NCBI GenBank assembly: GCA_946629405.1 | Contig: CAMOXW010000120.1 | Coordinates: 1-27,294, forward strand | DNA: 27,294 bases | DNA from: an uncultured Ruminococcus sp. | Lineage (GTDB): Bacteria > Bacillota_A > Clostridia > Oscillospirales > Ruminococcaceae | Direction: 5' to 3' | Part shown: one piece after another, positions 7,796-24,305 of the stretch | Position numbering within the stretch: the stretch's first letter is position 1 | Layout of the letters: each line of letters begins with the position of its first letter | Notes under the pieces: model-generated | What the model was told of the DNA's origin: nothing | Database searches by the model: none | The model's input: the letters and a program-made list of their open reading frames with translations, nothing else | Made by a program: the position numbers and the translations under genes

Positions 7796-7810
7796 CAGGA
7801 GTGATAAGGA

Positions 7811-8812: not shown

Positions 8813-8824
8813 GTGGAGGAAAAT

Positions 8825-10406: not shown

Positions 10407-11144
10407 ATGCTGAGAGGGAAAAATGCTGTTATAACCGGTTCAAACCGCGGCATTGGCCGTGCTGCGGTGGAACGTTTTGCTGAGAACGGCGCTGACATCT
10501 GGGCTTGTGCAAGGCGTTACAGCGAAGAATTTGCTAAGGATATGGCTGATACTGCTGAAAGGTACGGTGTCCGCATAAAGCCTGTTTATTTTGATCTTTC
10601 TGACAGCGCTGAGATCGACAGAGGCATGAGGGAGATATTCAGCGATAAAAAGCCTGTTGATATTCTTCTGAATAATGCGGGAATTGCTCATGGTGCGCTG
10701 TTTATGATGACCTCCATGGAAACATTAAGACAGGTCTACGAAGTGAACGTGTTCGCTCAGGTTCAGATAATGCAGCTGTGTGCAAGGAAAATGATCCGGC
10801 AGAAAAGCGGCTGTATCATAAATATGTGCTCTGTAGGAGGAATAAATACCGATCCGGGTTATCTTGCATACGGATCAAGCAAAGCTGCCCTTGCATGGAT
10901 AACAAAGTCAGTTTCACGAGAGCTTGGAAGGTATAATATCAGGGTAAACGGTATTGCTCCCGGGCTGATTGATACAGATATGGGAATGTACAAGTCTCCG
11001 GAGGAGCGTGATAAAGTCAGGCAGAAAATGAGCCTGGACAGAACAGGCAAGCCGGAAGAAGTCGCTGATGCGGCAGTTTATATCGCATCTGAAAAGGCAT
11101 CATATATGACAGGACATATACTTGTTCTGGATGGAGGCAGATAA
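10407..11144 (+). CDS. Short-chain dehydrogenase/reductase (FabG-like), copy 1
   Basis: 245 residues from ATG 10407, which has AGGAG 7 nt upstream; a TTG at 10368 lacks one. Classical SDR signature: TGSNRGIG (10-17) for NAD(P)H, NNAG (89-92), catalytic Ser142, Tyr155 and Lys159 in YGSSK. It ends LVLDGG as FabG-like reductases do. It should reduce a keto group, or oxidise an alcohol, on an acyl chain or sugar-like substrate. First gene of operon A; its TAA touches the ATG of the transketolase N gene, so the two are translationally coupled. A paralogue with the same neighbours lies at 18126-18872. A plausible role is to reduce the hydroxyketone made by the transketolase pair. Confidence 0.9.
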   Translation: MLRGKNAVITGSNRGIGRAAVERFAENGADIWACARRYSEEFAKDMADTAERYGVRIKPVYFDLSDSAEIDRGMREIFSDKKPVDILLNNAGIAHGALFMMTSMETLRQVYEVNVFAQVQIMQLCARKMIRQKSGCIINMCSVGGINTDPGYLAYGSSKAALAWITKSVSRELGRYNIRVNGIAPGLIDTDMGMYKSPEERDKVRQKMSLDRTGKPEEVADAAVYIASEKASYMTGHILVLDGGR

Positions 11145-11972
11145 ATGAATAATTATGATCCTGAAAATCTGAGAGCAATGGCGAAGCGTATGAAGCTTGC
11201 CGCTCTTGAAATGGTAAAGGCTGCCGGACCGAAAGGCGCTCATGTTGGCGGAGGTTTTTCATGTATGGAGATCATGGCAGTTCTGTACGGTGCGGTGCTG
11301 CGTATCTCGCCGGAATTTCCTCTGGCTCCTGAACGGGACAGGCTGCTCATCAGTAAGAATCACTGCACTCTGGCGCATTTCCCGGCACTTGCAGAAGCGG
11401 GTTTTATAGGCCGTGACGAGATCTGCACCTATGCTGTTGACGGAAGCCGTCTGATGGGTTATCCCTATGCTCCTGAGATAGGAATTGAGTATTCCGGGGG
11501 AAGTCTGGGCATGGCGATCTCAGTGGGTATCGGTCAGGCAATAAATGCAAGGAAAAAGGGCATTGGCAGTCATGTCTATGTCCTTATGGGGGACGGCGAG
11601 CTCAATGAGGGTTCGGTCTGGGAAGGACTGATGTCTGCTGCACATTTTGGTCTGTCAGATTTCACAGTTATCATTGACAGGAATCACCTTTGCTATGACG
11701 GGACCACAGACGAGGTCATGACTCTGGGAGATCTGAATGCTAAATTCGTGGCATTCGGTTTCAACACGGTAAACTGCAATGGCCATGATATTGATGACCT
11801 GCTCAAGGCATTCGCAAATAAGTCAGAGGACAGACCTAACGCAATAATTGCTGATACTGTAAAGGGACACGGAATCTCATTTGCTGAGAACCGGCCGGAG
11901 TGGCATCAGAGGGCAATGACTGAACAGCAGTATGAACAGGCTGTGAAGGAAATAATGGAGGCGGAGCAATGA
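11145..11972 (+). CDS. Transketolase N-terminal subunit (ThDP-binding half), copy 1
   Basis: 275 residues carrying the pyrophosphate-binding half of a split transketolase. The metal/ThDP motif GDGELNEG is at 149-156 with the distal Asn at 180, and TVKGHGISFAE lies near the C-terminus. His73 of the conserved SKGH motif is kept, but the glycine before it is Asn (SKNH), and the later DNNGLQ-type motif reads DRNHLC, so the active site has drifted from copy 2 and from housekeeping enzymes. It must pair with the C-terminal subunit next door (4-nt overlap ATGA). It likely transfers a two-carbon ketol or acyl unit to an aldehyde; the LuxC product is a candidate acceptor. Housekeeping transketolase is less likely given the operon. 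Confidence 0.9.
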   Translation: MNNYDPENLRAMAKRMKLAALEMVKAAGPKGAHVGGGFSCMEIMAVLYGAVLRISPEFPLAPERDRLLISKNHCTLAHFPALAEAGFIGRDEICTYAVDGSRLMGYPYAPEIGIEYSGGSLGMAISVGIGQAINARKKGIGSHVYVLMGDGELNEGSVWEGLMSAAHFGLSDFTVIIDRNHLCYDGTTDEVMTLGDLNAKFVAFGFNTVNCNGHDIDDLLKAFANKSEDRPNAIIADTVKGHGISFAENRPEWHQRAMTEQQYEQAVKEIMEAEQ

Positions 11973-12946
11973 AGATAACCAAGGGGATGGTGCGCTCATG
12001 GTCAAGACTGGGGCAGAGAGCGACGTTTTTTGCAATGGCAATGCCTGAGATAGCTGCGGAAAAAGAGGATGTTTACGTTCTGACAGCGGATCTTGCTCAG
12101 CTTTCAAATCTGAACAAATTTGCCTCGCTTTATCCTGACAGGTTTATCAACGTGGGTATAGCGGAGCAGAATATGGTGGGGATAGCTTCAGGTCTTGCTA
12201 TGGAGGGGAATTGTGTATTTGCAACAACATATTCATCGTTCATAGCAGTCCGCTCTCTTGAAAGTGTAAGGCAGCATATTTCTCATCTCAGGCTGAATGT
12301 CAAGCTGATAGGAACAGCAGCCGGCGTTGCAGCAGCACGTTCCGGCGTAGCTCACTGGGCAACTGAAGATGTGGCGTTTATGCGTTCGCTTCCCGGAATG
12401 AGGGTCATCTGCCCTTCTGACAGCAATCAGGCTTATCAGGCGGCTCATTACGCCGCCTCAACAGCACAGCCGATGTATATAAGGCTTAGCGGCACACCTG
12501 ATTGTCCGATAATTTATGACGAGAATTATGTTTTCGATCCCGACAGGATCAGCATTCTCAGGGAGGGGAGCGATGCGGCACTGCTTGCTTCGGGACTGGT
12601 GGTCCATGAGGCTGTGGAAGCTGCAAAAATTCTTGAAGGAAAGGGAATATCCTGTACTGTTGCTGATGTTCATACTATCAAGCCGCTGGATACCGTGACA
12701 CTTGGCAGGCTCATGAGTTCCCACAGGCTTATCGCAACAGCTGAGGAGCACAATATTATCGGCGGGCTGGGAAGTGCGGTCGCGGAGTTTAAAGCAGGCT
12801 TGTCAGGTTCACCGCGGCAGATATTTATAGGCATGAACGACAGCTTTGACGTGACAGCCGGCTCGCAGAGATATATCTGGGAACAGTTTGGCATTACGGC
12901 AGAAAAAATTGCGGAACGCATTGAGAAAGAATTTGATAAACGATGA
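11969..12946 (+). CDS. Transketolase C-terminal subunit, copy 1
   Basis: 325 residues containing the pyrimidine-binding domain and C-terminal domain of a split transketolase/DXS-like enzyme. GIAEQNM holds Glu66, the residue that activates thiamine diphosphate. SGVAHWATEDVAFMRSLPG matches the conserved His-containing loop, and the C-terminal third has AEEHNIIGGLG. The start overlaps the end of the N subunit by 4 nt and the end overlaps the LuxE start by 4 nt, so the three proteins are probably made in matched amounts. A paralogous pair lies at 16309-18104. Function with the N subunit: carbon-carbon bond formation; donor unknown (a ketose phosphate, hydroxypyruvate or pyruvate are possible). 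Confidence 0.9.
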   Translation: MKITKGMVRSWSRLGQRATFFAMAMPEIAAEKEDVYVLTADLAQLSNLNKFASLYPDRFINVGIAEQNMVGIASGLAMEGNCVFATTYSSFIAVRSLESVRQHISHLRLNVKLIGTAAGVAAARSGVAHWATEDVAFMRSLPGMRVICPSDSNQAYQAAHYAASTAQPMYIRLSGTPDCPIIYDENYVFDPDRISILREGSDAALLASGLVVHEAVEAAKILEGKGISCTVADVHTIKPLDTVTLGRLMSSHRLIATAEEHNIIGGLGSAVAEFKAGLSGSPRQIFIGMNDSFDVTAGSQRYIWEQFGITAEKIAERIEKEFDKR

Positions 12947-14022
12947 TAGAGGATTTTTATGTTTATTCGCCTTATGAGCTTGATTCTGCGGAAAAGAGCC
13001 GGCTGCTCACCGGCGAGCTGAAAAGACTGACAGCTTTCCACAGGGAGCATTGCTGTGAATATGCTGGTTTTCTCAGAACCGTAGGCTATAACGAGGAGAA
13101 TGTCCGGGAGGCATCAGATATTCCGTTTTTCCCGGTAAGAATGTTCAAGGAGTTTGACCTTCTGAGCATTGACAGGAGAGAGGTCTTCAAGACACTCACT
13201 TCGTCCGGCACTACCGGTCAGAGCGTTTCAAAAATATTTCTTGATCGTGATACCGCCCTGGCGCAGCAGAAGGTCATGGCGCGCATACTCAGTGATTTCT
13301 GGGGGAAGAAGCGTATGCCGCTGCTGGTCATAGACACTCCGGCGGTATTGAAGGATCGTAAAATGTTCACTGCAAGAGGTGCGGCTGTGCTCGGACTCAG
13401 CGTTATTGCGCGGGATACAGTCTATGTGCTGAACGATGATATGACCCTGAATACTGAAAAACTGGAGGGATTCCTTGAAAAATACGGCAGCCAGCCCTTC
13501 ACAGTGTTCGGGTTTACATTTATGGTATGGCAGCATTTTTACAAGGAACTGCTCAGAACTGATAAGAGATATGATCTTTCGCAGGCTTTTCTGATGACCG
13601 GCGGAGGCTGGAAAAAGCTGGTAGATTCCGCGGTCTCACATAGTGAATTCAAGCGGTGTATAACTGAAACTGCCGGTATTACGCATTTTCTCGATCATTA
13701 TGGAATGGCGGAGCAGACGGGCTGTATTTATGCGGAATGTGAGTGCGGACATCTTCATGCCAGCATCTATTCAGATGTGTTTATTCGTGATCCTGAGGAC
13801 TTTTCGCTGTGTCCTGATGGTAAAAAGGGCATAATACAGGTCGTATCAGTGCTGCCCGGATCATATCCGGGACATTCTCTCCTTACCGAAGACGAGGGAG
13901 TGATCCTTGGTGAGGACGATTGTCCCTGCGGAAGAAAGGGCAAGTATATCGGGATATACGGCAGGATGAAAAGTGCAGAGATCAGGGGGTGCAGTGATAC
14001 TTATGCAGATAGATTCAGGTAA
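12943..14022 (+). CDS. LuxE-family acyl-protein synthetase, copy 1
   Basis: 359 residues. LuxE proteins activate a carboxylic acid with ATP to acyl-AMP and pass the acyl group to the LuxC reductase. The nucleotide-binding SSGTTGQ is at 87-93; further on are HYGMAEQTGCIY, a CECGHLH cluster and DDCPCGRKGKY, whose Cys and His could hold a metal. The same set is present in the copy at 22025-23113. Its start overlaps the transketolase gene by 4 nt, and its last 20 nt overlap the LuxC gene. No luciferase luxAB genes exist nearby, so this is a biosynthetic reductase system rather than light production. The acid it activates is not known; fatty acid is the family default. Confidence 0.9.
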   Translation: MIEDFYVYSPYELDSAEKSRLLTGELKRLTAFHREHCCEYAGFLRTVGYNEENVREASDIPFFPVRMFKEFDLLSIDRREVFKTLTSSGTTGQSVSKIFLDRDTALAQQKVMARILSDFWGKKRMPLLVIDTPAVLKDRKMFTARGAAVLGLSVIARDTVYVLNDDMTLNTEKLEGFLEKYGSQPFTVFGFTFMVWQHFYKELLRTDKRYDLSQAFLMTGGGWKKLVDSAVSHSEFKRCITETAGITHFLDHYGMAEQTGCIYAECECGHLHASIYSDVFIRDPEDFSLCPDGKKGIIQVVSVLPGSYPGHSLLTEDEGVILGEDDCPCGRKGKYIGIYGRMKSAEIRGCSDTYADRFR

Positions 14023-15223
14023 GATAGAGTTTCTTGTCGGAAATAAAGAGGTGCTTGAGGATTCGGCTGAAACACCTGTGCTTCCGATGTTTTCAGAAAA
14101 AATGAAGGGTTTTCTGTCTGACCTTTCAAAGGAGCTGTTTTCGGATCCTCGTTCAAAAGGGTATAAGGACGTTCTTTCCTATGCTTACTGGATAAGGAGC
14201 TCATCACTGCATCAGGCTGAGGAGAAGCATACTGACCGTGATATGCGGCTTGGCAGAGGGCTTGCACTGCATATAGCTCCGTCCAATGTGCCGGTGAACT
14301 TTGCGGTATCCATGACTTCCTCGGCGCTTGCAGGGAATATTTCCGTTGTAAGACTGTCAAGCAAGCCATTTGTGCAGGCTGATATTATCTGCGAAGCAAT
14401 GGAGCGGCTGCTTACTTCAGCTCATTCTGAGCTAAGACCGTATTTCTGTATAATAAGATACCCCCACGATCCGGGAATAACCGGTTGGTTATCTTCAATG
14501 TGCGATATACGCATAATCTGGGGCGGCGACAGGACAATAAACGAGGTGAGGAGCGCTCCGCTCCCTGCAAGAGCGATAGAGCTGACATTTGCGGACAGGT
14601 TTTCAGCAGCGGTCATTGATTCTGAGGCGTATCTTGCACAGGACCCGCAAAAAGTTGCAGAGGGATTCTACACAGACACTTACTACACCGATCAGAATGC
14701 GTGCAGCTCGCCGCGATTTGTTGTGTGGACGGGAAATTCCGTTCCTGAGGCGAGAGCGCGTTTCTGGAAGATCCTCGGAGAGCTTGCAGACAGGAATTAT
14801 GATATGCAGCCGCTTCAGGCTGTGGATAAGCTGACAGCTATATGTGCGGCAGGAATGTCGCTTGAGGGCATCAGGCTTGTATCATCAGGCAATAAGGTAG
14901 TCCGGGCTGAGCTTGATCGTCTTACGCCGGATGTCATGAAGTTCAAGACCGGCGGAGGATTGTTCTTTGAATACACTGCGGCAGCGCTGGACGAGATCGT
15001 GCCGATACTTACAAAGCAATGCCAGACGATCTCGCTTCTTGGTATTCAGCCGGAAGCAGTCCGGGAGCTTGTTTTCAGCAGAGGTGTGCGCGGCTGTGAC
15101 AGGATAGTTCCCCTCGGGCAGACTATGGGGCTTGAATTTATCTGGGACGGTTTCAGGATGATCGATGCCATGACGAGATATGTGTATTTTGATAAAAAGG
15201 GTGAAAAATATGGATTATATTGA
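14003..15223 (+). CDS. LuxC-family acyl reductase (aldehyde-forming), copy 1
   Basis: 406 residues from ATG 14003; GTG 13994 is an alternative because AGGGGG at 13984-13989 is nearer to it. LuxC takes an acyl group on a cysteine and reduces it with NADPH to an aldehyde. The catalytic cysteine is in DQNACSSPR (Cys234), and the family motif HIAPSNVPVNFA and IIWGGD are present, as is LPARAIELTFADR. It overlaps LuxE by 20 nt, and the overlap is almost identical in nucleotide sequence to the second luxE-luxC junction. Its end overlaps the FkbM gene by 14 nt. With the transketolase pair in the same operon, its aldehyde is a good candidate acceptor for two-carbon extension. Confidence 0.9.
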   Translation: MQIDSGKIEFLVGNKEVLEDSAETPVLPMFSEKMKGFLSDLSKELFSDPRSKGYKDVLSYAYWIRSSSLHQAEEKHTDRDMRLGRGLALHIAPSNVPVNFAVSMTSSALAGNISVVRLSSKPFVQADIICEAMERLLTSAHSELRPYFCIIRYPHDPGITGWLSSMCDIRIIWGGDRTINEVRSAPLPARAIELTFADRFSAAVIDSEAYLAQDPQKVAEGFYTDTYYTDQNACSSPRFVVWTGNSVPEARARFWKILGELADRNYDMQPLQAVDKLTAICAAGMSLEGIRLVSSGNKVVRAELDRLTPDVMKFKTGGGLFFEYTAAALDEIVPILTKQCQTISLLGIQPEAVRELVFSRGVRGCDRIVPLGQTMGLEFIWDGFRMIDAMTRYVYFDKKGEKYGLY

Positions 15224-16262
15224 AAAACTTATAGAAGATGTTCGCAGTGAAAAAAACAGCATTTATTTATATGGAGCAGGTTACTTAGCTGATAAATACA
15301 GACAGCTTCTTGATGAGAATGAAGTTGAGATCGCCGGATATATTGTTGACAGCGAATACCTGTCAAAAAGTGAAAAGGAAATAAAAGGAAAGCCTGTTGT
15401 TGGAATAGAAAGCATCGCGGATGATATAACATTGATAGTTGCGGTCAGAGCGAGCGGGTTAAGGGTAAAGCTTCCGGAGTCGCCGTTTATCAAGAAAGTT
15501 ATCGCTCTTGATTATTCAACTTATGTAAATTTCGGAGCGCTGGATGAAGATTTCTTAGTTGAGCACAAAGATGAGATAGCTGATATTTTCAGCAGACTTG
15601 CAGATTTTGAATCCAAACGCTCTCTGTTGAACTTCATAGATCAGAAGCTGACGGGGACCTATAATAAGCAATACACTCTAAAGCCGCAGTATTTTGACGA
15701 TGATGTATTTTTACCCGCGGAAGATGAAGTTTTTGTTGATTGCGGTGCGTATACAGGAGATTCTGTTACAGGGTTTGCTGAATTCTTAAAGCAGAACAAA
15801 ATATCCTCATTCCGCAGGTGCATTGCTTTTGAACCTGATAGTGAGAACTATGAGACCCTTTGTGAAAATGTGAAGGGGTATGCAAATGTTGAGACCTACA
15901 AGCTCGGAGTGCATAGTGAAAAAGCAACTCTATGCTTCAGCGCGGGAAATCAGAAGATATCCAGCATAACCGAGAGCGGCGGGGCAAGAATAGATGTTGA
16001 TTCGATAGACAATATCGTCGGTGACGACAGGGTCACATATATCAAGATGGATATAGAAGGCTCTGAAATGTCTGCACTGAAGGGGGCGGAGAAAACCATA
16101 CTGAGGAACAAGCCCAGACTTGCAGTGTGCATCTACCACAGAACTGATGATTTTATAAAGATACCGCAGTACATACTCAGCCTTGTGCCGGAGTATAAGC
16201 TGTACGTCAGGAACTATGATCCGACAGGTGTAGATACTGTTCTGTATGCAATAAAAGGGTAA
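15210..16262 (+). CDS. FkbM-family methyltransferase with N-terminal Rossmann-like domain
   Basis: 350 residues from ATG 15210 with AAGG upstream; it overlaps luxC by 14 nt. The C-terminal half is an FkbM SAM-dependent methyltransferase: FVDCGAYTGDS is the SAM loop, AFEPD the next acidic motif, and KMDIEGSEMSALKGA the family signature. The first 110 residues (YLYGAGYLADKY, VDSEYL) look like the small nucleotide-binding domain seen in sugar-modifying proteins. FkbM enzymes put O-methyl groups on polyketides, lipids or sugars. As last gene of operon A it probably caps a hydroxyl of the pathway product. Base composition seems somewhat more AT-rich than the upstream genes, which may mean separate acquisition. 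Confidence 0.87.
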   Translation: MDYIEKLIEDVRSEKNSIYLYGAGYLADKYRQLLDENEVEIAGYIVDSEYLSKSEKEIKGKPVVGIESIADDITLIVAVRASGLRVKLPESPFIKKVIALDYSTYVNFGALDEDFLVEHKDEIADIFSRLADFESKRSLLNFIDQKLTGTYNKQYTLKPQYFDDDVFLPAEDEVFVDCGAYTGDSVTGFAEFLKQNKISSFRRCIAFEPDSENYETLCENVKGYANVETYKLGVHSEKATLCFSAGNQKISSITESGGARIDVDSIDNIVGDDRVTYIKMDIEGSEMSALKGAEKTILRNKPRLAVCIYHRTDDFIKIPQYILSLVPEYKLYVRNYDPTGVDTVLYAIKG

Positions 16263-16271
16263 GACAGGCGT

Positions 16272-16307
16272 AAAAAGAGCTGCTTCATTTCCGAAGCAGC
16301 TCTTTTT
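16272..16307. terminator. Bidirectional intrinsic terminator between operons A and B
   Basis: Perfect 15-bp stem: AAAAAGAGCTGCTTC (16272-16286) with GAAGCAGCTCTTTTT (16293-16307), 6-nt loop. The A-run and T-run at the ends make it work on both strands, for operon A from the left and operon B from the right. Confidence 0.95.
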
Positions 16308-16308
16308 G

Positions 16309-17277
16309 TTATCTGAGTATATTGCGGATAGTATCGCTTATTGAAACGTCGTCGATACCCGCATTTTTCATCATATAGGCGTAGTCACCGGCCTTTATGG
16401 AATAATCATCCGGAGCGCCGGCTTTGGTCAGTTTTGTGGGGATAGCGTTAGCCGCGATGACTTCGGCGACTGCGGTACCCAGACCGTTATGGATATTATG
16501 CTCCTCGACTGTAAGAACGTTTTTGAAACCTGAGCAAACCTCACGGACCGTATCCGCATCGAAGGGTTTAAGTGTGTGGACGTTTACGACCTTGACGGAG
16601 ATACCTTCTTTTTCCAGAGCCTTTGCGGCTTTAAGTGCGTTTGCGACCGGAGTGCCGCAGGCGAATACCGCAATATCAGTACCTTCTCTGAGCGTTATTG
16701 CTTTTCCTATCCGGAAATCATATTCTTCGGTGTAAACAACAGGTGTGAATCTTCCGCCGGTGAGGCGTATATACATGGGACCTTCAAAGGTCATTGCAGC
16801 CTCAATGCACTTGTATATCTCCGAACAATCAGCCGGAGTTACGACAGTTATCCCGGGGATACAGCTGATGACCGAAGCGTCCTCAAGACCGTAGTGAGAG
16901 TAGCCGGAGCTGCCCTGTTCATAGCCTGAGCTGAGGCCGATGAGTTTGACGTTCATACGCATATAGCCCAGGTTCATTCTGATCTGGTCGAGGCATCTGC
17001 TTGTGATGAAGGGTGAGAATGAAGTTGCGAAAACATTGCAGCCTTCTGAGGCTATTCCTGCTGAAACGCCGATGAGGTTCTGTTCAGCGATACCTACATT
17101 GAAAAATCTGCTGCTGAAATTATCTCTGAATTTTGAGAGGCCTGATGATTCGCAGAGGTCAGCTGAAAGAACTGCAAAGTCATAAGCTCCTGCAAGATCA
17201 TTTATGGCATATCCGAAAGTTCCGCGTGCTCCGAGCATAGAAAGCATTCTTGCATTTTTTCTGTTGATTTCAAGCAT
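16309..17277 (-). CDS. Transketolase C-terminal subunit, copy 2
   Basis: 322 residues with Glu65 of GIAEQNL for ThDP activation, the SGYSHYGLEDASVISCIPG loop and VEEHNIHNGLG, so the pyrimidine-binding and C-terminal domains are complete. AGGAGG lies just upstream of ATG 17277 inside the end of the N-subunit gene, and only 2 nt separate the two genes. It is the last gene of operon B and its stop codon abuts the bidirectional terminator. It is a paralogue of 11969-12946, clearly diverged, so the two pairs probably differ in donor or acceptor. It could in principle be the housekeeping enzyme, but the SDR neighbour repeated in both operons argues for a pathway role. Confidence 0.9.
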   Translation of the reverse strand: MLEINRKNARMLSMLGARGTFGYAINDLAGAYDFAVLSADLCESSGLSKFRDNFSSRFFNVGIAEQNLIGVSAGIASEGCNVFATSFSPFITSRCLDQIRMNLGYMRMNVKLIGLSSGYEQGSSGYSHYGLEDASVISCIPGITVVTPADCSEIYKCIEAAMTFEGPMYIRLTGGRFTPVVYTEEYDFRIGKAITLREGTDIAVFACGTPVANALKAAKALEKEGISVKVVNVHTLKPFDADTVREVCSGFKNVLTVEEHNIHNGLGTAVAEVIAANAIPTKLTKAGAPDDYSIKAGDYAYMMKNAGIDDVSISDTIRNILR

Positions 17278-17279
17278 TG

Positions 17280-18104
17280 TTACTCCTCCTGTGCAAGCTC
17301 AGCTTTAGCCTGTTCATAGAGCTCCTGAGTAATGGGTTCATGGTGCCACTGATTATTGTTTTCCATAAACGAAACGCCCTTGCCTTTTATTGTTCTGGCT
17401 ATGACGAGTTTTGGTTTGCCGTTAGTAAAGTCCATAGCGGAGAATGCGCTGTGGATAGATGAAAAATCGTGACCGTCCACTTCATAGACATCGAAGCCCA
17501 GAGCGGACCAGTTTTTGAGCAATTCGCGGATGTCGAGGATCTCATTTACGGGTCCGTCGCTCTGGAGGCCGTTATTATCGACAATTGCAACAAGCCCTGA
17601 GAGCTTGTACTGTGCGGCAGTCATAGCAGCCTCCCAGACTGAGCCTTCATTACATTCGCCGTCGCCCATAAGCACAGCATTCCGGTATGAAAGTCCCTTC
17701 ATGCGGGCGGCTATCTGCTGACCTACAGCGAAAGACAGGCCCTGACCGAGACTTCCGTTTGAAGACTCGATACCAAGCTCAAGGTTTCTTACGGGGTGAG
17801 AGAGGAGGTCGCCGCCGTCCTTTTCAAATTCCGCAAATTTATCATCGCTGAGAAAGCCTGCATCGTGAAGTGCGGCATAATAGCTCATTACGCAATGACC
17901 CTTGCTGAGGATAAAGCGGTCTCTCGCGGCATCGGTCCTGTTATCAGTATTGAATTTCAGGAAGCAGTTATAGATATATGTAACAAGCTCCACTGAGGAT
18001 AATGAGCCGCCGAAATGAGCGGCTTTGCCTGTTCTGAAAGCCATATCCAGGATAGTATTCCTCATTGCTTTGGCTTTGGCACAGAGTTCTTTTTCGTTGA
18101 ACAT
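17280..18104 (-). CDS. Transketolase N-terminal subunit (ThDP-binding half), copy 2
   Basis: 274 residues. LSKGHC (His70) is in the standard form, GDGECNEG is at 147-154, VDNNGLQSDG follows, and TIKGKGVSFMEN with WHHEP closes the protein, so this copy is nearer to canonical split transketolases than copy 1 (SKNHC, DRNHLC). It would bind thiamine diphosphate and a divalent metal and works only with the C subunit at 16309-17277. It follows the SDR gene at a 21-nt gap with a GGAGGTC site. In operon B no LuxE or LuxC is present, so it may share the reductases of operon A or unit D. Confidence 0.9.
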   Translation of the reverse strand: MFNEKELCAKAKAMRNTILDMAFRTGKAAHFGGSLSSVELVTYIYNCFLKFNTDNRTDAARDRFILSKGHCVMSYYAALHDAGFLSDDKFAEFEKDGGDLLSHPVRNLELGIESSNGSLGQGLSFAVGQQIAARMKGLSYRNAVLMGDGECNEGSVWEAAMTAAQYKLSGLVAIVDNNGLQSDGPVNEILDIRELLKNWSALGFDVYEVDGHDFSSIHSAFSAMDFTNGKPKLVIARTIKGKGVSFMENNNQWHHEPITQELYEQAKAELAQEE

Positions 18105-18125
18105 ATAAACTGACCTCCGTGGTAA

Positions 18126-18872
18126 TTATCTGGCACCGCCGTCAATGCGGATGACCTGACCGTTGACGAACGAAGATGAATCGCTTGCAAGAAATGCGAC
18201 GACGTTTGCGATCTCATCCGGAGACGCAAGGCGTTCCATAGCGCATCTTTCGAGAAGGTGTTCCTCGCCCACGGCTTCTCTGACGGCTTTGACCATATCA
18301 GTGTCAACAGGACCGGGAGCAATGGCATTGACCCTTATCCCGAAACGGCTGACTTCAGAAGCGAGGACCTTTGAGAAATGGATAAGAGCAGCTTTGCTTG
18401 AACCGTATGAGCAGTTGGTGGGATTGGTATCAATACCGGCGATAGAAGCGATATTGATTATGGAGCCGCCGCTTCTCTGCATAACCTTGAGCACAAGCTG
18501 TGTAAGGCATACCGCGCCGAAGAAATTGACAGCGAACACTTCGTGCAGCTTTTTCATGGGTGTCATCTGGAAAATATCGGTATTGACGATACCGGCAGCA
18601 TTGACGAGAATATTGACAGGCTTCCGGCTCTTGTAGATCTGCTTGAAGCCTTCCTTGACGGCGTCCTCGTCCGAAATATCAAAATACACAGGAGTTATCT
18701 CCACACCATATTCCTGAGAGACTGAACTGAGTTCTTCTTCAAATCCGTCGTATTTCTGTCTGGCGCAAGCCCAGATATTGCATCCTGAAGCTGCGAGCTT
18801 TCTGACGACAGCCTTTCCTATACCTCTGTTAGCGCCGGTAACTATTGCTGACCTGCCTTTAAGATCTTCCAT
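18126..18872 (-). CDS. Short-chain dehydrogenase/reductase (FabG-like), copy 2
   Basis: 248 residues: TGANRGIG (12-19), NAAG (91-94), Ser143, Tyr156 and Lys160 in YGSSK, and the C-terminal IRIDGG. Same length, same unusual NIWACAR stretch after the second strand and same gene neighbours as copy 1 (10407-11144), so the SDR-transketolase set has been duplicated as a block. It should carry out an NAD(P)H-linked keto reduction. It is the first gene of operon B, about 40 nt downstream of the -10 box, and the promoter overlaps the shared CAATTGTCA element. Confidence 0.9.
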   Translation of the reverse strand: MEDLKGRSAIVTGANRGIGKAVVRKLAASGCNIWACARQKYDGFEEELSSVSQEYGVEITPVYFDISDEDAVKEGFKQIYKSRKPVNILVNAAGIVNTDIFQMTPMKKLHEVFAVNFFGAVCLTQLVLKVMQRSGGSIINIASIAGIDTNPTNCSYGSSKAALIHFSKVLASEVSRFGIRVNAIAPGPVDTDMVKAVREAVGEEHLLERCAMERLASPDEIANVVAFLASDSSSFVNGQVIRIDGGAR

Positions 18873-18912
18873 GCTGTATCGCTCCCTCTGAGAGTGTAGA
18901 TTTTATATAACC

Positions 18913-18941
18913 ATTATACTATATGTTAACACAATTGTCAA
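18913..18941 (-). promoter_or_regulatory. Perfect sigma-A promoter of operon B
   Basis: Minus strand TTGACA (18941-18936), 17-nt spacer, TATAAT (18918-18913). The -35 lies inside CAATTGTCA (18932-18940, plus strand), the 9-mer repeated in the operon A leader. It is followed on the plus side by CCTGGATCCGGG (18943-18954), similar to the operon A palindrome. Confidence 0.88.
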
Positions 18942-18983
18942 CCCTGGATCCGGGCTGAACTGTATAAAATATACATAAAGCAG

Positions 18984-19012
18984 TTGACACAGGCGGCTTA
19001 ATATGATATAAT
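18984..19012 (+). promoter_or_regulatory. Perfect sigma-A promoter of unit C (GNAT-ACP)
   Basis: TTGACA (18984-18989), 17-nt spacer, TATAAT (19007-19012). The two -35 boxes of this promoter and the operon B promoter are only about 43 nt apart, so one protein bound between them could control both. The leader to ATG 19126 is about 107 nt and I see no known riboswitch in it. Confidence 0.88.
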
Positions 19013-19125
19013 GATTGCAAGGAATTCATTTGCCGTTGCCATATCATAATGCCTGCGCTTTTATGATACAATGGTTCAGTGATCTGAGGTTCTGTTTGAT
19101 AATATGGTTTACGGGATGATAGAGT

Positions 19126-19869
19126 ATGAAAATAGTTGATGCAATATGGGAAAAGCGCAATCTCGGCGTGGATACTGTTGAGATCACTATTGAAGAACAC
19201 GATCCTGAGACCGAAGTTATATCAGCGATCAATGATCCTGATGCACAGTATGCCGTTGTCCGGGTGCCGGCAGTCCGCGCTGACCTGATATTTCCGGTAC
19301 AGCAGAAGGGATATGTCTTTGCAGAGGAAATGGTACACCTTGTCAGTGATCTTGCAGAGGTGGAGCTTACTCCTGTCGAAAAGCGGCTGTGGGATGCTGT
19401 TTCCTGCCGGCGCATGGAAGACGATGATATTGCTGAGCTGAGAGCTGAGATCCGGAAGGGGCTTTTTTCTACTGACAGGATATATCTTGATCCGGCTTTT
19501 TCAAAGGAGCTTGCCGCTGAAAGATATGTGAACTGGATAAATGATGAGCTTGAACGGGGCGGATTTCTTGTGAAGTACGTCTATAAGTGCAGAACAGCCG
19601 GCTTCTTTTCGCTGAGAGATACGGGAAACGGCGATTACACCTCAGTGCTTGGCGGGATGTACAGCGATTTCCGGAAGGGCGGGCTGGTTACGGCTGTCTC
19701 GGGAAAGGTCCCGGAGTTTGTGAAGAAGCTTGGCGGCAGATCAGTCGATGCTCATGTTTCTGCGAACAATCCTGTACAGATAAAGAATCTGCTCAGAAAC
19801 GGCTATAAGCTGGTGAGTATAGAACACATTTTCACACGTCATGCCCCCTCGGTTCCAGAGGGCGTATAA
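19126..19869 (+). CDS. GNAT-like N-acetyltransferase (WecD-type), probable
   Basis: 247 residues. The first 110 have no motif I recognise. The second half resembles GNAT acyltransferases of the WecD kind: GFFSLRDTGNGDYTSVLGGMY as the central strands, GGLVTAV in the place of the acyl-CoA region, and VSANNPVQIKNLLRNGYKLV, where the VSANNP..........GY pattern is the standard GNAT C-terminus. It would transfer an acyl group from acyl-CoA or from the neighbouring ACP to an amine or hydroxyl. It is followed 14 nt later by the ACP gene, suggesting that the ACP-bound product is its donor. The ribosome site is weak (GGGATGATAGAG). Not a confident substrate call. Confidence 0.65.
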   Translation: MKIVDAIWEKRNLGVDTVEITIEEHDPETEVISAINDPDAQYAVVRVPAVRADLIFPVQQKGYVFAEEMVHLVSDLAEVELTPVEKRLWDAVSCRRMEDDDIAELRAEIRKGLFSTDRIYLDPAFSKELAAERYVNWINDELERGGFLVKYVYKCRTAGFFSLRDTGNGDYTSVLGGMYSDFRKGGLVTAVSGKVPEFVKKLGGRSVDAHVSANNPVQIKNLLRNGYKLVSIEHIFTRHAPSVPEGV

Positions 19870-19883
19870 TAAAGGAGGATAAT

Positions 19884-20120
19884 ATGAATAATCTTGAACT
19901 TTACAATAATGCTTTTGTTGAATCACTTGGCGTAGATGAGGCTGAGCTTGAGGAGCTTGAGTATCAGAAAAATGCTGCGTGGGACAGCGTAGGTCACATG
20001 GGACTTGTTGCTGCTCTGGAGGATGCTTTCGACATCATGATGGATACAGATGATATTATTGATCTCAGTTCTTATAAGAAGGGCAAGGAGATCCTTGCAA
20101 AATATGATGTGACATTCTGA
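19884..20120 (+). CDS. Acyl carrier protein
   Basis: 78 residues, the normal size. Acidic helices surround WDSVGHM, where Ser35 is the likely phosphopantetheine site (DSV instead of the usual DSL), followed by ALEDAFDIMMDTDDIIDL, the typical ACP helix II-III stretch. AAAGGAGG stands 5 nt before ATG 19884. It is the only carrier protein in the locus, so it probably serves as acyl carrier for the AMP-ligase (20491-21903), the LuxE/LuxC pairs, or the GNAT. The rest of a fatty acid or polyketide chain-building set is absent, so it receives rather than builds the chain. Confidence 0.92.
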   Translation: MNNLELYNNAFVESLGVDEAELEELEYQKNAAWDSVGHMGLVAALEDAFDIMMDTDDIIDLSSYKKGKEILAKYDVTF

Positions 20121-20149
20121 GGCTGCATCGCATCGGATAATGCTTTGAG

Positions 20150-20188
20150 AAGCTGCGTAACGAATCGTTGCGCGGCTTTTTGTTTTTT
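20150..20188 (+). terminator. Intrinsic terminator after the ACP gene
   Basis: A 13-bp stem with two G-T wobbles: AAGCTGCGTAACG (20150-20162) and CGTTGCGCGGCTT (20166-20178), 3-nt loop, followed by a T-rich run (TTTTGTTTTTT). It separates unit C from unit D. Confidence 0.88.
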
Positions 20189-20490
20189 CACCCGGTTCAC
20201 GCTGCTAAAAAAGCGGCACCTGATTTGTGCATTGTGATGAAAATTCGAGCGGATACCGGGAGAATTATTGACCTTTTATAAAAATATTGATATAATATTA
20301 ATTGAAAGATATTATATTTAGTTCTGATTTTTACTCCTTGAGCGGAAGGGAGATCCTTTTCGGGAACTTGTCTGTCCGGGCTGTAAAAAGGGGATCGGAT
20401 GATGCGGCGCCGCATCCTGCAAGGTCAGCGGCAAAAATACGGGGAAGTTCAGGGCTTTCCTGAAAAATCTGAGTTTGGAGTGAGGTTCTG
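20189..20490 (+). promoter_or_regulatory. Structured leader of unit D with promoter and palindrome
   Basis: This non-coding stretch holds the unit D promoter (20268-20296) and a leader of about 185 nt. Around 20350-20416 GATCC/GGATC arms flank an internal loop, then the perfect 16-nt palindrome GATGCGGCGCCGCATC (20401-20416). No T-run follows, so it is not a standard terminator. I cannot match it to a known riboswitch. The leader ends with GAGG before ATG 20491. Confidence 0.5.
20268..20296 (+). promoter_or_regulatory. Sigma-A promoter of unit D
   Basis: TTGACC (20268-20273), 17-nt spacer, TATAAT (20291-20296). One mismatch to the consensus -35. It lies downstream of the terminator of unit C. 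Confidence 0.85.
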
Positions 20491-21903
20491 ATGATCTGGG
20501 ATCTGGAGATCTTTGGCGATAAATGTGCGATGACCGACGATATGGGGAGAAATGTCAGCTATAGTGAGCTTAGTGCGGAGTCTCAAAAAGTGGCTCAGGC
20601 TGTTGGCAGGAGATGCCTGGTGTTTTCGCTGTGCCGGAATGAGATCGGCTCAGTTGTGGGATATGTGGGATTCATGAACGGCAATATTCCGCCGGTGCTT
20701 CTCAATAGTGCCATGGAGCGTGAGCTTCTTGACGGGCTGCTGAATATCTATGAGCCCTCGTATATCTGGGCCCCTGAGGATCAGAGGGACGATTTTTCCG
20801 GAACTGAGGCGGTTTACAGTGCTTACGGATATGTGCTGCTGAAAACTGCTTACGGGCATGATCGTCCGCTGAATGATGAACTTGCGCTGCTGCTGACGAC
20901 CTCAGGCTCTACAGGCAGTCCGAAATTCGTCCGGCAGTCCTATGAGAATGTGCTAGATAACGCAAGGAGCATCGTTGAGTATCTTGAGCTTGACGACAGC
21001 GAGCGTCCCATTACCACGCTGCCGATGAATTACACCTACGGATTGTCCATTATCAACTCACATTTTCTTGTGGGAGCGACCCTGCTGCTGACGGAAAAGA
21101 CCCTGATGCAGAAGGAATTCTGGCAGTTCTTCAGAGACCAGAAGGCTACGTCCTTTGGTGGAGTTCCGTATACCTACGAGATGCTGGATAAGCTGAGATT
21201 CACAAGAATGGATCTGCCGTCGCTGAGATATATGACTCAGGCAGGCGGAAAGCTGCTCCCGGAGCTGCATGAGAAATTTGCGAAAAATGCTGCGGAGACC
21301 GGCAGAAAGTTCGTGGTGATGTACGGTCAGTGCGAGGCGACCGCGAGAATGGGCTATCTTCCGGCTGAGAAGTCAGTTGAGAAGAAGGGCTCAATGGGTA
21401 TCGCTATCCCCGGCGGAAAATTCCACCTGATCGCCGCCGACGGCAGTACGATCACCGAGCCGTTTACTACAGGCGAGCTGGTCTATGAGGGTAAGAATGT
21501 TACTCTTGGATACGCCGAGTGCGCTGAGGATCTCATAAAGGGCGATGAGCGCGGCGGTATCCTTGAAACCGGCGATATGGCGCAGTTCGACGAGGACGGC
21601 TACTATTATATCGTGGGAAGGAAAAAACGCTTCCTCAAGATCTATGGCAACCGCGTGAACCTGGACGAGATCGACAGAATGATAAAGGCTGAGTTCGGTA
21701 TCGAAGCAGCAAGCACCGGTTTTGACGACAATATGTACATATTCATCACGGAAGGCGATAAGAAGAAGCAGGTGCTTGATATGGTAGTCAGAAAGACACG
21801 GCTCAACAGTCTTGCTTTTAAGGTCGTTACCGTGGACGAGATACCCAAGAACGATTCCGGAAAGACACTTTACAAGGAACTGGCAAAATACTATGAAAGC
21901 TGA
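20491..21903 (+). CDS. AMP-forming acyl ligase (class I adenylate-forming, acyl-ACP/CoA ligase type)
   Basis: 470 residues. The P-loop TSGSTGSPK is at 137-145, YGQCEATARMGYLP is the adenine-binding motif, ETGDMAQFDEDGYYYIVGRKKRFLK holds the ATP ribose-binding Asp, and the C-terminal domain ends with NDSGKTLYKEL, with Lys458 as the likely catalytic lysine. It is somewhat shorter than acyl-CoA synthetases (about 500-550). It should activate a carboxylic acid and load it on the ACP encoded 370 nt upstream, or on CoA, giving LuxC its acyl substrate. It begins unit D, and its last codons overlap the thioesterase remnant. The substrate cannot be read from the sequence. Confidence 0.9.
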   Translation: MIWDLEIFGDKCAMTDDMGRNVSYSELSAESQKVAQAVGRRCLVFSLCRNEIGSVVGYVGFMNGNIPPVLLNSAMERELLDGLLNIYEPSYIWAPEDQRDDFSGTEAVYSAYGYVLLKTAYGHDRPLNDELALLLTTSGSTGSPKFVRQSYENVLDNARSIVEYLELDDSERPITTLPMNYTYGLSIINSHFLVGATLLLTEKTLMQKEFWQFFRDQKATSFGGVPYTYEMLDKLRFTRMDLPSLRYMTQAGGKLLPELHEKFAKNAAETGRKFVVMYGQCEATARMGYLPAEKSVEKKGSMGIAIPGGKFHLIAADGSTITEPFTTGELVYEGKNVTLGYAECAEDLIKGDERGGILETGDMAQFDEDGYYYIVGRKKRFLKIYGNRVNLDEIDRMIKAEFGIEAASTGFDDNMYIFITEGDKKKQVLDMVVRKTRLNSLAFKVVTVDEIPKNDSGKTLYKELAKYYES

Positions 21904-22035
21904 AAAACAACTTTTCTGCTTCCCGTTTGCAGGCGGCAGCGCAAGTTATAACGGCGATCTGTGAACGCAAAACCACTCAAAAAAGATATACTCGGTTATA
22001 TATCCGATATTCTGGAGGATCTGAATGACATTTGA
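21893..22035 (+). pseudogene. Remnant of a type II thioesterase gene with an internal deletion
   Basis: Frame 1 from ATG 21893 encodes 23 codons, MKAEKQLFCFPFAGGSASYN plus GDL, then TGA 21962. The FCFPFAGGSAS string is the recognisable N-terminus of type II thioesterases. Directly after, in another frame (21961-22035), lies KKDILGYISDILEDLNDI before TGA, reminiscent of the family's C-terminal helix. It overlaps the ligase end by 11 nt and the LuxE start by 11 nt, just as the other genes of the locus overlap. So most of a thioesterase gene of roughly 240 codons seems lost, leaving its two ends. A small functional peptide cannot be ruled out. Confidence 0.7.
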
Positions 22036-23113
22036 CGATATAATGAAAGTCGCTCCCTATTCTCTTGATGCAGAGAGTAAAGAGCGGCTTCTTACTGAAA
22101 GACTGACCGGTCTGACCCTGCTTCACAGGGAAAGATGCGGCGTCTACAAAAAATATCTGGACAGCATTGGCTTTGAGCCGGAAAAAGTGGAGAGATGTGA
22201 GGATATTCCCTTCATCCCGGTACGGCTGTTCAAGCAGCTCGAACTTAAATCGGTGGCAGATGATGAGATCGTCAAGGTGATGACCTCATCCGGAACTACA
22301 GGTCAGGCGGTGAGCAGGATATTTCTGGACAAGGCGACCTCTGCGGCTCAGCAGAAGGCGATGATAAAAATTGTGGCAGACCATACAGGTTCAGCACGGA
22401 TGCCCATGATAATTATTGACAGCCCCTCAGTCCTGAAGAACAGGAGGATGTTTTCCGCAAGAGGAGCAGGTATCCTGGGATTTTCCATGTTCGGTACAAA
22501 AAAGATCTACGCCCTCAATGACGAAATGCAGCTTGATACGCATGGACTTGCGGAATTTCTGGAGGCCAGCCGCGGCAGGCGGATATTCCTTTTCGGCTTC
22601 ACATTTATGATATGGCAGCACTTTTACAGGGAGCTTGTCAGATTGAAGGAGAAGGGCATAGTCTTCGACCTTTCGGACGCAGTGATGATACACGGCGGAG
22701 GCTGGAAAAAGCTGACCTCTGAGGCAGTATCGCATGATGAATTCCATATGCGGCTTAGGGAGGTCTGCGGGCTGGAGGACATCCGGGATTACTACGGAAT
22801 GGTCGAGCAGACGGGCTGTATCTACATGGAATGCCAATGCGGTCATCTCCATGCAAGCATTTTTTCAGACGTTATCACAAGGCGGCATAAGGATTTTTCT
22901 GTCTGCGCTCCCGGCGAAAAGGGACTGATACAGGTGGTATCCTCGATACCGGAATCCTATCCGGGACACAGCCTTCTTACTGAGGACGAGGGGATCATCC
23001 TCGGACAGGACGACTGTCCATGCGGCAGAAAGGGGAAATACTTCCGGATAACCGGAAGAATAAAGAGCGCAGAGATCAGGGGGTGCAGTGATACATATGC
23101 AGCAGAATTCTGA
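22025..23113 (+). CDS. LuxE-family acyl-protein synthetase, copy 2
   Basis: 362 residues with SSGTTGQ at 88-94, YYGMVEQTGCIY, the CQCGHLHAS cluster and DDCPCGRKGKY, collinear over its whole length with copy 1 (12943-14022). GGAGG at 22013-22017 is 7 nt before ATG 22025. It should make acyl-AMP and pass the acyl group to LuxC2, whose gene overlaps its 3' end. Here the partner upstream is the AMP ligase rather than a transketolase pair, so this copy may act on a different acid, or with the ACP. Two potential acid-activating enzymes (ligase and LuxE2) in one operon are a redundancy worth explaining. Confidence 0.9.
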   Translation: MTFDDIMKVAPYSLDAESKERLLTERLTGLTLLHRERCGVYKKYLDSIGFEPEKVERCEDIPFIPVRLFKQLELKSVADDEIVKVMTSSGTTGQAVSRIFLDKATSAAQQKAMIKIVADHTGSARMPMIIIDSPSVLKNRRMFSARGAGILGFSMFGTKKIYALNDEMQLDTHGLAEFLEASRGRRIFLFGFTFMIWQHFYRELVRLKEKGIVFDLSDAVMIHGGGWKKLTSEAVSHDEFHMRLREVCGLEDIRDYYGMVEQTGCIYMECQCGHLHASIFSDVITRRHKDFSVCAPGEKGLIQVVSSIPESYPGHSLLTEDEGIILGQDDCPCGRKGKYFRITGRIKSAEIRGCSDTYAAEF

Positions 23114-24305
23114 TATCCTTGACAGAGTTGTCTTTCTTGCAGGGGACAGGGAGAACCTTCTTGCAGCTCCGGAGCTCCCGGCGCTCAGCCCTTTTTCGGA
23201 GGAGATGATCTCCATGCTGGAAAGGGTCTCCAGACAGCTTATGAGCAATGCCGGAACAAGGCTTTACCCGGATGTGACGACCTTTGCATTCTGGATAAGG
23301 CGGGCTTCGCTCATGGAAATGAAGCAGCGCTTCCTGAAAAACGACGACGGGATATGTACCGGCAGAGGAGTGGCATTCCACATCGCACCGTCCAATGTAC
23401 CGGTGAACTTTGCGTACACACTGGCTGCGGGACTGCTTGCAGGGAACGCAAATATCGTCCGTGTGCCGTCGAAGGGATTTCCGCAGGCGGAGCTTATTGC
23501 CGAAGCATTTGAGCAGGTGCTTGCACAGGACAAGGCTCTGCGCCCCTATGTGAATCTTGTCAGGTACGGCAGGGATGATGAGGTGAATGCCTTCTTCTCG
23601 CAAATGGCAGACATCAGGGTGATCTGGGGCGGAGATGAGACTATTGCGTCGCTGAGGAAGGCGCCGCTTCCGCCCCGTGCCGTGGAGATAACATTTGCTG
23701 ACAGGTATTCGCTTGCAGTCATTGACAGTGAGAGCTATCTTTCGGCGGAGGACAAGGCGGCTGTTGCAAGGGATTTTTACAACGATACCCTGCTCACCGA
23801 TCAGAATGCCTGCACAAGTCCGCGGCTGGTGGTCTGGATTGGCAGGGAAAAGGAACGCGCCAAGCGGGAATTCTGGCAGTTTTTCCACCGTGAAGCCGAT
23901 GAAAGGTATCAGCTTCAGCCGATACAGTCAGTGAACAAGCTGGCGAGCAGCTTTCTGGCGGCAGCAGCTTTTGAAAAATGCAGGATAGAGCCGCATGAGG
24001 ATAATCTGGTGATCCGGGTGAATATCCCGCATCCCGTAAAGGGGGTCATGGAGCTGCGTGACAACAGCGGTTTTTTCCTGGAATACGACTGCGGGGATAT
24101 CATGGAGCTGCGCGGGCTTTGCGATGACAAGCGCATACAGACTATCGGTTATCTGGGCAGCAGGGATATGCTCAGACCGCTGCTCAGTTCCGGGATCAGG
24201 GGCGTTGACAGGGTAGTACCCATAGGCAGGACAATGGATTTTGACCTGTTCTGGGACGGCTATGACCTTGTGACAGGCATGACACGGAGGATAGTGGTGA
24301 GATAG
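23097..24305 (+). CDS. LuxC-family acyl reductase (aldehyde-forming), copy 2
   Basis: 402 residues from ATG 23097; GTG 23088 in the same frame is the alternative start. Catalytic Cys239 is in DQNACTSPR, with HIAPSNVPVNFAY, VIWGGDE and LPPRAVEITFADRYS also present. Like copy 1 it overlaps the LuxE gene, by 17 nt from the ATG. It should reduce a protein-bound acyl group with NADPH to an aldehyde. It ends unit D, followed by a hairpin at 24333-24357. Compared with copy 1 the N-terminal 80 residues and the segment around 150-170 differ most, which is where substrate differences might lie (inference). Confidence 0.9.
   Translation: MQQNSDILDRVVFLAGDRENLLAAPELPALSPFSEEMISMLERVSRQLMSNAGTRLYPDVTTFAFWIRRASLMEMKQRFLKNDDGICTGRGVAFHIAPSNVPVNFAYTLAAGLLAGNANIVRVPSKGFPQAELIAEAFEQVLAQDKALRPYVNLVRYGRDDEVNAFFSQMADIRVIWGGDETIASLRKAPLPPRAVEITFADRYSLAVIDSESYLSAEDKAAVARDFYNDTLLTDQNACTSPRLVVWIGREKERAKREFWQFFHREADERYQLQPIQSVNKLASSFLAAAAFEKCRIEPHEDNLVIRVNIPHPVKGVMELRDNSGFFLEYDCGDIMELRGLCDDKRIQTIGYLGSRDMLRPLLSSGIRGVDRVVPIGRTMDFDLFWDGYDLVTGMTRRIVVR

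Follow-up and report, generated by a model that had tools for sequence, protein, structure and literature searches.

Split transketolases with an altered acceptor site beside LuxE-LuxC genes of an uncultured Ruminococcus, and a proposed route to a surface-glycan building block

Analysis of contig CAMOXW010000120.1 of an uncultured Ruminococcus sp., a bacterium that probably lives in a gut or rumen (assembly GCA_946629405.1; the window here means this whole 27,294-nt stretch) revealed a locus at 10407..24305 with two sets of a short-chain dehydrogenase/reductase (SDR) and a split transketolase (TktN, the subunit that binds thiamine diphosphate (ThDP), and TktC, the Pyr plus C-terminal subunit), two LuxE-LuxC pairs, an acyl carrier protein (ACP), an AMP-forming acyl ligase, a WecD-like GNAT and an FkbM methyltransferase. 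The gene set is real, widespread and non-random; it has been partly described as a gene list and is unexplained as chemistry. What is new is that its transketolases form a retargeted clade, altered at the acceptor site. The balance of the evidence tips slightly toward a two-armed module for an unusual surface-glycan building block, in which an aldehyde made by LuxE and LuxC would be extended by the dedicated transketolase; its substrate, product, order of steps and glycan target we infer from sequence.

A transketolase clade with an altered acceptor site

Transketolase residues were numbered and aligned on E. coli TktA and counted from a local-pair alignment, the automatic mode of MAFFT having misplaced Arg520. 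Thirty-four pairs from 33 LuxE loci and the two window pairs were compared with 10 other split transketolases (one per LuxE-bearing genome, the best Transketolase_N match that was split) and with 26 unselected transketolases (25 split, one full-length) from genomes drawn from the phylum regardless of LuxE. Rows L081, L082 and L084-L091, duplicates of L008 or re-fetched loci, were dropped, and L125 gave no pair.

The acceptor-site residues His461 and Asp469 were both absent from all 34 LuxE-locus pairs and both window pairs and were both kept in all 10 other split transketolases, while the unselected enzymes kept Asp469 in 25 and His461 in 21 of 26 cases. TktC1 has Ala at 461, Ser at 469 and Leu at 385, and TktC2 has Ser at both 461 and 469. 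Arg91, the salt-bridge partner of Asp469 in E. coli transketolase (PMC5073344, in the part of the text available), was kept in none of the 34 LuxE-locus and neither of the window pairs, in 10/10 of the other split enzymes and in 23/26 of the unselected ones; the corresponding counts for Arg520, whose column aligns less well, were 2/34, 0/2, 10/10 and 25/26. Ser385 did not discriminate: the 10 housekeeping-type rows have Ala there, and of the 34 LuxE-locus pairs 15 have Ser and 17 have Phe, Tyr or Leu. An engineered E. coli transketolase, S385Y/D469T/R520Q, shifted from phosphorylated toward non-polar aldehydes, according to the same partial source (PMC5073344). To judge by the sequence at His461 and Asp469, the window enzymes lie outside the pentose-phosphate transketolases.

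The 34 pairs, the two window pairs, a pair from a Rhizobium plasmid (Gly461/Leu469) and a further transketolase, L104, formed one clade of 38 rows (support 100/100, stem 0.79) in a tree whose bootstrap was not quite settled. Eight residues that we take to bind ThDP or to act in catalysis (His26, His66, Asp155, Asn185, His261, Glu411, Phe437 and His473) were kept in both window pairs. Position 469 was Leu in 23 of the 34 LuxE-locus pairs, Ser in three, Phe in three, Gln in two, Ala in two and Gly in one, the kind of variation to be expected if acceptors had diversified within the clade. TktN1 has Tyr in place of His100, presumably a donor-side residue, so that the donor of window pair 1 may differ.

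L104, from genome G035 (G035:C10), was the only one of the 26 unselected transketolases without Asp469. Around it lie genes for Maf/MptE-type glycosyltransferases, FkbH, a SPASM protein, a family 2 glycosyltransferase (GT2) and an SDR; the LuxE (165 bits) and LuxC genes of G035 adjoin ACP, ligase and NeuB genes. Of the 19 other unselected genomes, three gave a LuxE match that passed the threshold of the family, with scores of at most 89.9 bits. L104 supports a role in glycan synthesis and weakens strict adjacency to LuxE.

Association with LuxE and exchange of the carboligase

A genome_contigs scan with both LuxE proteins of the window found at least 440 confirmed relatives among at least 594 stretches. 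The best 80 were kept; they are titled mostly Lachnospiraceae, Oscillospiraceae and other Clostridia, and being related through LuxE they are not independent draws. Genes were labelled by BLAST to reference proteins, those outside these families staying unlabelled, and the families included LuxC (79 loci), AMP ligase (74), ACP (64), SDR (53), thioesterase (42), DegT (34), TktN (33), PglD (25), NeuB (23), GNAT (21, a label that covers two different GNAT kinds), GT2 (15) and FabA-like genes (15). Genes for NeuB, DegT, PglD, sugar transferases and glycosyltransferases surround the relatives, a setting that looks like surface-sugar synthesis. The initial annotation, made from the letters of the window alone, had proposed a genome search for SDR-TktN-TktC-LuxE-LuxC neighbourhoods, and relatives do occur in surface-glycan loci of Clostridia and on a Rhizobium plasmid. 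With a published Dickeya flagellar island added, the locus is not unique.

The association between LuxE and transketolase is non-random and far above chance. Transketolase_N was searched for (55 matches of at least 90 bits) in the genomes of 30 loci, picked from the 80 for their long flanks, and TktN fell within the fetched LuxE stretch in 14 of the 30, against 0.36 expected at random placement (Poisson P 5.5e-18), an expectation that used all TktN matches of the genome, those of the locus included, and is therefore conservative. Chance co-occurrence had been named at the outset as a finding that would undo the interpretation; these counts go the other way. In all 14 genomes whose LuxE locus holds TktN, another TktN match lies elsewhere. 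In the 59 loci over 15 kb and the window together, 24 of 31 TktN genes have an SDR immediately before them.

Transketolase, NeuB and acetolactate synthase (ALS)-like enzymes can all add a carbon unit to aldehydes or ketones. Of the 59 loci over 15 kb, 28 contain TktN, 13 contain a core-adjacent NeuB and one contains both (Fisher P 0.0013, under an adjacency rule chosen after the maps had been seen); counting any NeuB in the locus, the overlap with TktN was 6/21 (Fisher P 0.055). ALS-like ThDP enzymes occurred in seven of the 59, and along its length the NeuB of L005 can be aligned with sialic acid synthase. These patterns suggest that NeuB often replaces transketolase in related loci, and exchangeable carboligases would point to a shared carbonyl intermediate.

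The LuxE and LuxC genes of the window are clear members of their families (PF04443, 172 and 199 bits against a cut-off of 24.9; PF05893, 81 and 95 bits), and the curated luminescence LuxC model NF052251 scored far below its cut-off. We take the C-terminal cysteine of LuxE to be the acyl-accepting residue and the aligned cysteine of LuxC to be catalytic. The RGCSD motif of LuxE2, which recurs in LuxE1, aligns with KGCSL of the LuxE structure 7xc6_E, and DQNACTS of LuxC2 (in TDQNACTSP; DQNACSS in LuxC1) aligns with DQQACFS of 7xc6_A.

LuxE1 falls in a separate seven-row clade (FastTree, support 99). Three rows show the order SDR-NeuB-LuxE1-LuxC1; the other four, among them the window, have TktN-TktC with LuxE1, one of these rows (L054) with two SDRs between TktN-TktC and LuxE1. 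Two LuxE-LuxC pairs occur together in seven of the 80 fetched loci as well as in the window (L028 counts among the seven, although its first LuxE is truncated at the end of the locus), and six of these loci plus the window make up the LuxE1 clade, with TktN-TktC or NeuB near LuxE1.

Other features of the LuxE loci were observed in passing. LuxE and LuxC share one frame of 767-817 aa, an apparent fusion, in L003, L006, L013, L028, L045, L052 and L077. The thioesterase, which lies between AMP ligase and LuxE in 34 of its 42 loci and was not found in the window, is reminiscent of the role of LuxD. A lactate/malate-dehydrogenase-like gene is present in 20 of the 80 loci, in 17 of them as the next labelled gene after LuxC.

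The nearest fetched relative of block 1 is a Ruminococcus flavefaciens metagenome-assembled genome (L008; ACP 96%, LuxE1 90%, TktC1 89% and SDR1 83% identical), in which block 2 is more distant (AMP ligase 74%, LuxE2 69%, LuxC2 45%). Because these identities differ, the two blocks seem to have separate histories. Farther afield, a Rhizobium leguminosarum plasmid (CP090119.1) carries TktN, TktC, a hexapeptide transferase, ACP, AMP ligase, a glycosyltransferase (opposite strand), LuxE, LuxC and an SDR (opposite strand), in that order; its ligase is annotated as two pieces, and the set adjoins a TonB siderophore receptor. A Deinococcus plasmid has glycosyltransferases, a sugar transferase, ACP, SDR, ligase, LuxE, LuxC and an acetyltransferase, and no transketolase. 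A plasmid search with TktN returned 614 records, all below 60% identity. For the AMP ligase, at least 7998 candidates were scored, and since almost none of the 120 listed was named, the substrate could not be read from them; among solved structures the best sequence matches were oxalate- and malonyl-CoA ligases, which scored about 90 bits and were closely followed by many other ligases.

Gene content and transcription of the window

Gene families were assigned by Pfam profile search of 30 window open reading frames (ORFs) out of 102 listed, with NCBIfam, BLAST and AlphaFold added, and negative statements about the window refer to these 30. The families confirmed the gene content given by the initial annotation, and all named reading frames are open from start to stop:

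10273..10301, plus strand: sigma-70-like promoter before SDR1, 12/12 consensus match
10407..11144, plus strand: SDR1 (PF13561, 187 bits), ATG start at 10407 after AGGAG
11145..11972, plus strand: TktN1, transketolase ThDP-binding subunit (PF00456, 101 bits)
11969..12946, plus strand: TktC1, transketolase Pyr and C-terminal subunit (PF02779/PF02780, 115+81 bits)
12943..14022, plus strand: LuxE1, acyl-protein synthetase of its own clade (PF04443, 172 bits)
14003..15223, plus strand: LuxC1, acyl-thioester reductase (PF05893, 81 bits), ORF open from 13973
15210..16262, plus strand: FkbM-family methyltransferase (PF05050, 56 bits; TIGR01444), ORF open from 15180
16309..17277, minus strand: TktC2 (PF02779/PF02780, 93+89 bits)
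17280..18104, minus strand: TktN2 (PF00456, 125 bits)
18126..18872, minus strand: SDR2 (PF13561, 198 bits)
18913..18941, minus strand: sigma-70-like promoter before SDR2, 12/12 consensus match
18984..19012, plus strand: sigma-70-like promoter before GNAT-ACP, 12/12 consensus match
19126..19869, plus strand: WecD-like GNAT, predicted amino-sugar N-acyltransferase (NF008212, 5.9e-6, below cut-off)
19884..20120, plus strand: acyl carrier protein with DSVGHM motif (NF002150, 5.3e-5, and PF00550, 16.5 bits, both below cut-off)
20146..20182, plus strand: terminator-like hairpin after ACP
20268..20296, plus strand: promoter-like site before AMP ligase-LuxE2-LuxC2, 11/12
20491..21903, plus strand: AMP-forming acyl ligase (PF00501, 128 bits)
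22025..23113, plus strand: LuxE2, acyl-protein synthetase, C-terminal Cys354 (PF04443, 199 bits)
23097..24305, plus strand: LuxC2, acyl-thioester reductase (PF05893, 95 bits), ORF open from 23088
24362..25339, minus strand: ArnC/PgfS-like undecaprenyl-phosphate GT2, possibly associated (PF00535; NF007986, 195 bits, below cut-off)

A longer TTG start of SDR1 at 10368 is less likely. The ACP call stands on a Pfam score below the cut-off of 20.8 and on NCBIfam acyl carrier protein models likewise below theirs. The GNAT had no Pfam match, and its weak NCBIfam match is to the dTDP-Fuc4N acyltransferase model; its AlphaFold model (pLDDT 93) was closest in the PDB to WecD (2fs5, TM-score 0.72/0.79), followed by assorted GNATs. 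The same protein cluster as the GT2 is present in 13 other fetched loci. Neither a ketosynthase nor a luciferase family (luxA, luxB) was found among the ORFs scanned, as had been stated from the sequence, and Rfam gave nothing above gathering thresholds in the window.

The tight overlaps of 4-20 nt described initially hold for part of the locus. They are 4, 4, 20 and 14 nt along TktN1-TktC1-LuxE1-LuxC1-FkbM (with LuxC1 from 14003 and FkbM from 15210) and 17 nt for LuxE2-LuxC2 (LuxC2 from 23097), whereas the minus-strand set has gaps of 2 and 21 nt and GNAT-ACP, ACP-ligase and ligase-LuxE2 are spaced by 14, 370 and 121 nt. Identity between the two copies is 57% for LuxE, 44% for LuxC, 39% for TktN, 40% for TktC and 41% for SDR, and the duplicated genes are old paralogues. 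A recent tandem duplication was ruled out by the placement of the window transketolase pairs in different subclades and by their 39-41% identity.

Because perfect boxes precede SDR1, SDR2 and GNAT, about four transcripts are likely between 10273 and 24305: SDR1-TktN1-TktC1-LuxE1-LuxC1-FkbM (plus), SDR2-TktN2-TktC2 (minus), GNAT-ACP (plus) and AMP ligase-LuxE2-LuxC2 (plus). Over the window, 26 promoter-like sites were counted against 19.2 expected and 23 terminator-like sites against 13.0 expected. Two more perfect TTGACA-N17-TATAAT boxes lie elsewhere, at 26603 (plus) and 6993 (minus). Pairwise alignment of the promoter regions found a single common motif, 19 nt that the upstream regions of GNAT and GT2/CorA share.

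The left flank (1-8776) is a Ter-type cluster with genes for PP2C, VWA and kinase proteins, for two TerD proteins, and for a cation ATPase and a C-C bond lyase (PF15617), and the right flank contains CorA. A MATE transporter gene (8813-10165; TIGR00797, 215 bits) lies upstream of SDR1 on the same strand and could encode a product exporter.

Proposed pathway, precedents and alternatives

We propose that LuxE would activate a carboxylic acid as acyl-AMP and then as acyl-Cys, and that LuxC would reduce the acyl group to a free, non-phosphorylated aldehyde. Sugar phosphates do not appear to be recognised by the acceptor pocket of the dedicated split transketolase; this enzyme would add a two-carbon ketol unit, and the SDR would reduce the new ketone to give a polyol or polyhydroxy acid. 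The AMP ligase and ACP would serve as carriers, whether of the starting acid or of the completed polyhydroxy acid. Transfer of the acyl product to an amino sugar would fall to the WecD-like GNAT and its O-methylation perhaps to FkbM, and the ArnC-like GT2 would load the sugar onto undecaprenyl phosphate. As a speculation, one round from malate would give a 3-deoxyhexonic acid. The two sets might also act in series: a dicarboxylic or hydroxy acid would be reduced by one LuxE-LuxC pair, extended by C2 and reduced again before the second pair activates the remaining carboxylate for another extension. We regard this elaboration as unlikely, though the loci with two LuxE-LuxC pairs, and the TktN-TktC or NeuB near LuxE1 in six of them and the window, speak for it. 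In outline, the comparative evidence supports the conversion of acid to aldehyde and its C2 extension that the initial annotation had suggested.

Several observations weigh against this module. Besides the weaker exclusion when every NeuB is counted and the retrospective choice of the adjacency rule, 18 of the 59 loci lack TktN, core-adjacent NeuB and ALS-like genes, and 15 have none of the carboligase genes, whether TktN, NeuB, ALS-like or HMGL-like. The residue losses of the 34 pairs, which descend from one ancestor, are not 34 independent events, and L104 is not beside LuxE, the LuxE-LuxC genes of its genome being on another contig. Of the 34 relatives, 11 have Asn instead of Asp155, a presumed ligand of the cofactor metal, and one has Leu instead of His473; not all relatives need therefore be active transketolases. 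No sugar-nucleotide synthesis gene was found among the window ORFs scanned.

Some of these points would also fit two separate jobs, in which LuxE-LuxC, ACP and ligase make an acyl group, as proposed for the tetronate of Vibrio cholerae O1, and SDR and transketolase make another sugar, the aldehyde never serving as a transketolase acceptor. The 18 loci that have the LuxE core but no transketolase, core-adjacent NeuB or ALS-like enzyme, the separate contigs of the two sets in G035, and the ACP-SDR-ligase-LuxE-LuxC genes without transketolase on the Deinococcus plasmid and, from the portion of the source available, in Aeromonas islands all speak for such a division. It is harder to reconcile with the operon order SDR-TktN-TktC-LuxE1-LuxC1 with 4-nt overlaps, with the presence of Tkt or NeuB beside LuxE1 and with the altered acceptor-site residues of all 34 locus pairs, and we consider it possible, if rather unlikely.

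A pathway from a medium- or long-chain fatty aldehyde to a lipid-like polyol or liposugar, which the initial annotation suggested for a lipid-like or branched polyol and which the accessible parts of PMC4875605 and PMC7874193 also suggest, would draw on the homology of LuxE-LuxC to the luminescence fatty-acid reductases and on the FabA-like genes of the related loci, and the lost acceptor polarity of the transketolases also fits a hydrophobic aldehyde. The window ORFs scanned include no ketosynthase, the ligase comes closest to oxalate- and malonyl-CoA ligases, and the relatives lie in glycan loci; a lipid-like product is decidedly improbable on this evidence. That housekeeping pentose-phosphate transketolases hitch-hiked into the island, the other outcome named at the outset as damaging, is rejected as very improbable despite their complete ThDP-binding residues and the frequency of split transketolases in clostridial genomes, given the joint loss of His461 and Asp469 only in the locus-type clade of the tree, the second TktN elsewhere in all 14 genomes and the association with LuxE.

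The statement that V. cholerae O1 RfbN has a LuxE domain and acts in tetronate synthesis reportedly goes back to Morona (1995). That pathway presumably comprises a carrier protein, a ligase, a reductase and the alcohol dehydrogenase RfbM, with no transketolase. No RfbM-type alcohol dehydrogenase family was found among the window ORFs scanned; ACP, AMP ligase, LuxE and LuxC stand together in the window as they presumably do in that pathway, a likeness at the level of families. In the part of PMC4772473 available, RfbN is given a LuxE domain within the 3-deoxy-L-glycero-tetronate pathway, so that there, too, a LuxE-type domain serves a glycan component.

The module proposed here has a partial chemical precedent in azinomycin, where AziC3-C6 take an acid to a semialdehyde and then to transketolase extension; in the accessible account of the azabicycle (AziC2-C6), the C2 extension falls to the transketolase AziC5/C6 (PMC9570651). 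In that antitumour natural product the acid is activated by a kinase as acyl phosphate and not by LuxE, and neither acid kinase nor acyl-phosphate reductase families were found among the window ORFs scanned. The window shares LuxE and LuxC homologues with aligned cysteines with luxCDABE bioluminescence, which differs in its luciferase.

The claim that no pathway with this gene set had been described stands for the chemistry; the set itself is in print. Like the window, the Dickeya flagellar island has FkbM, LuxC, LuxE, AMP ligase, split transketolase, ACP, an acetyltransferase and two FabG-type SDRs, according to the available portion of PMC7575072 (the same set appears in accessible parts of PMC4522980, PMC8864124 and PMC6206727). 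The likeness is by gene families; the Dickeya island has one LuxE-LuxC pair and one Tkt set and lies beside flagellin genes, equivalents of its vioA and rfbC were not found in the window, and no flagellar families were found in the window flanks of ter-type genes, MATE and CorA. The LuxE-LuxC part also occurs in flagellin islands (PMC4875605 and PMC7874193, as far as their accessible text goes). The Aeromonas group II island shares ACP, 3-oxoacyl-ACP reductase, AMP-dependent synthetase, LuxE and LuxC with the window and has a GT2 downstream of luxC, as the window does; the word transketolase is absent from that paper (PMC7874193). In the text available to a term search, PMC12342839 and PMC13317340 had nothing on LuxE with transketolase, and the open-licence literature, in the parts accessible and with subscription papers mostly outside its scope, does not treat LuxE-linked transketolases as a retargeted clade.

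The gene set in print has been filed, in the sources as accessible, under fatty-acid, sugar or liposugar synthesis. Our finding may bear on the flagellin glycan of A. piscicola AH-3, a strain in the ACP-SDR-ligase-LuxE-LuxC island group, which carries a 102-Da part of unassigned identity (PMC7874193, accessible text); a dihydroxybutanoyl residue (C4H6O3) would have 102.03 Da, a lead rather than a test, as other compositions fit. If the two sets did act in series, sugar-like chains would be built de novo from carboxylic acids without phosphates, and interchangeable carboligases (transketolase, NeuB or acetolactate-synthase-like) would give different products in different bacteria. Here a natural transketolase clade is altered where engineers change residues to reach non-sugar aldehydes, beside likely aldehyde-makers, which would provide new carboligases and a testable way to reach the surface-glycan components of gut and rumen bacteria.

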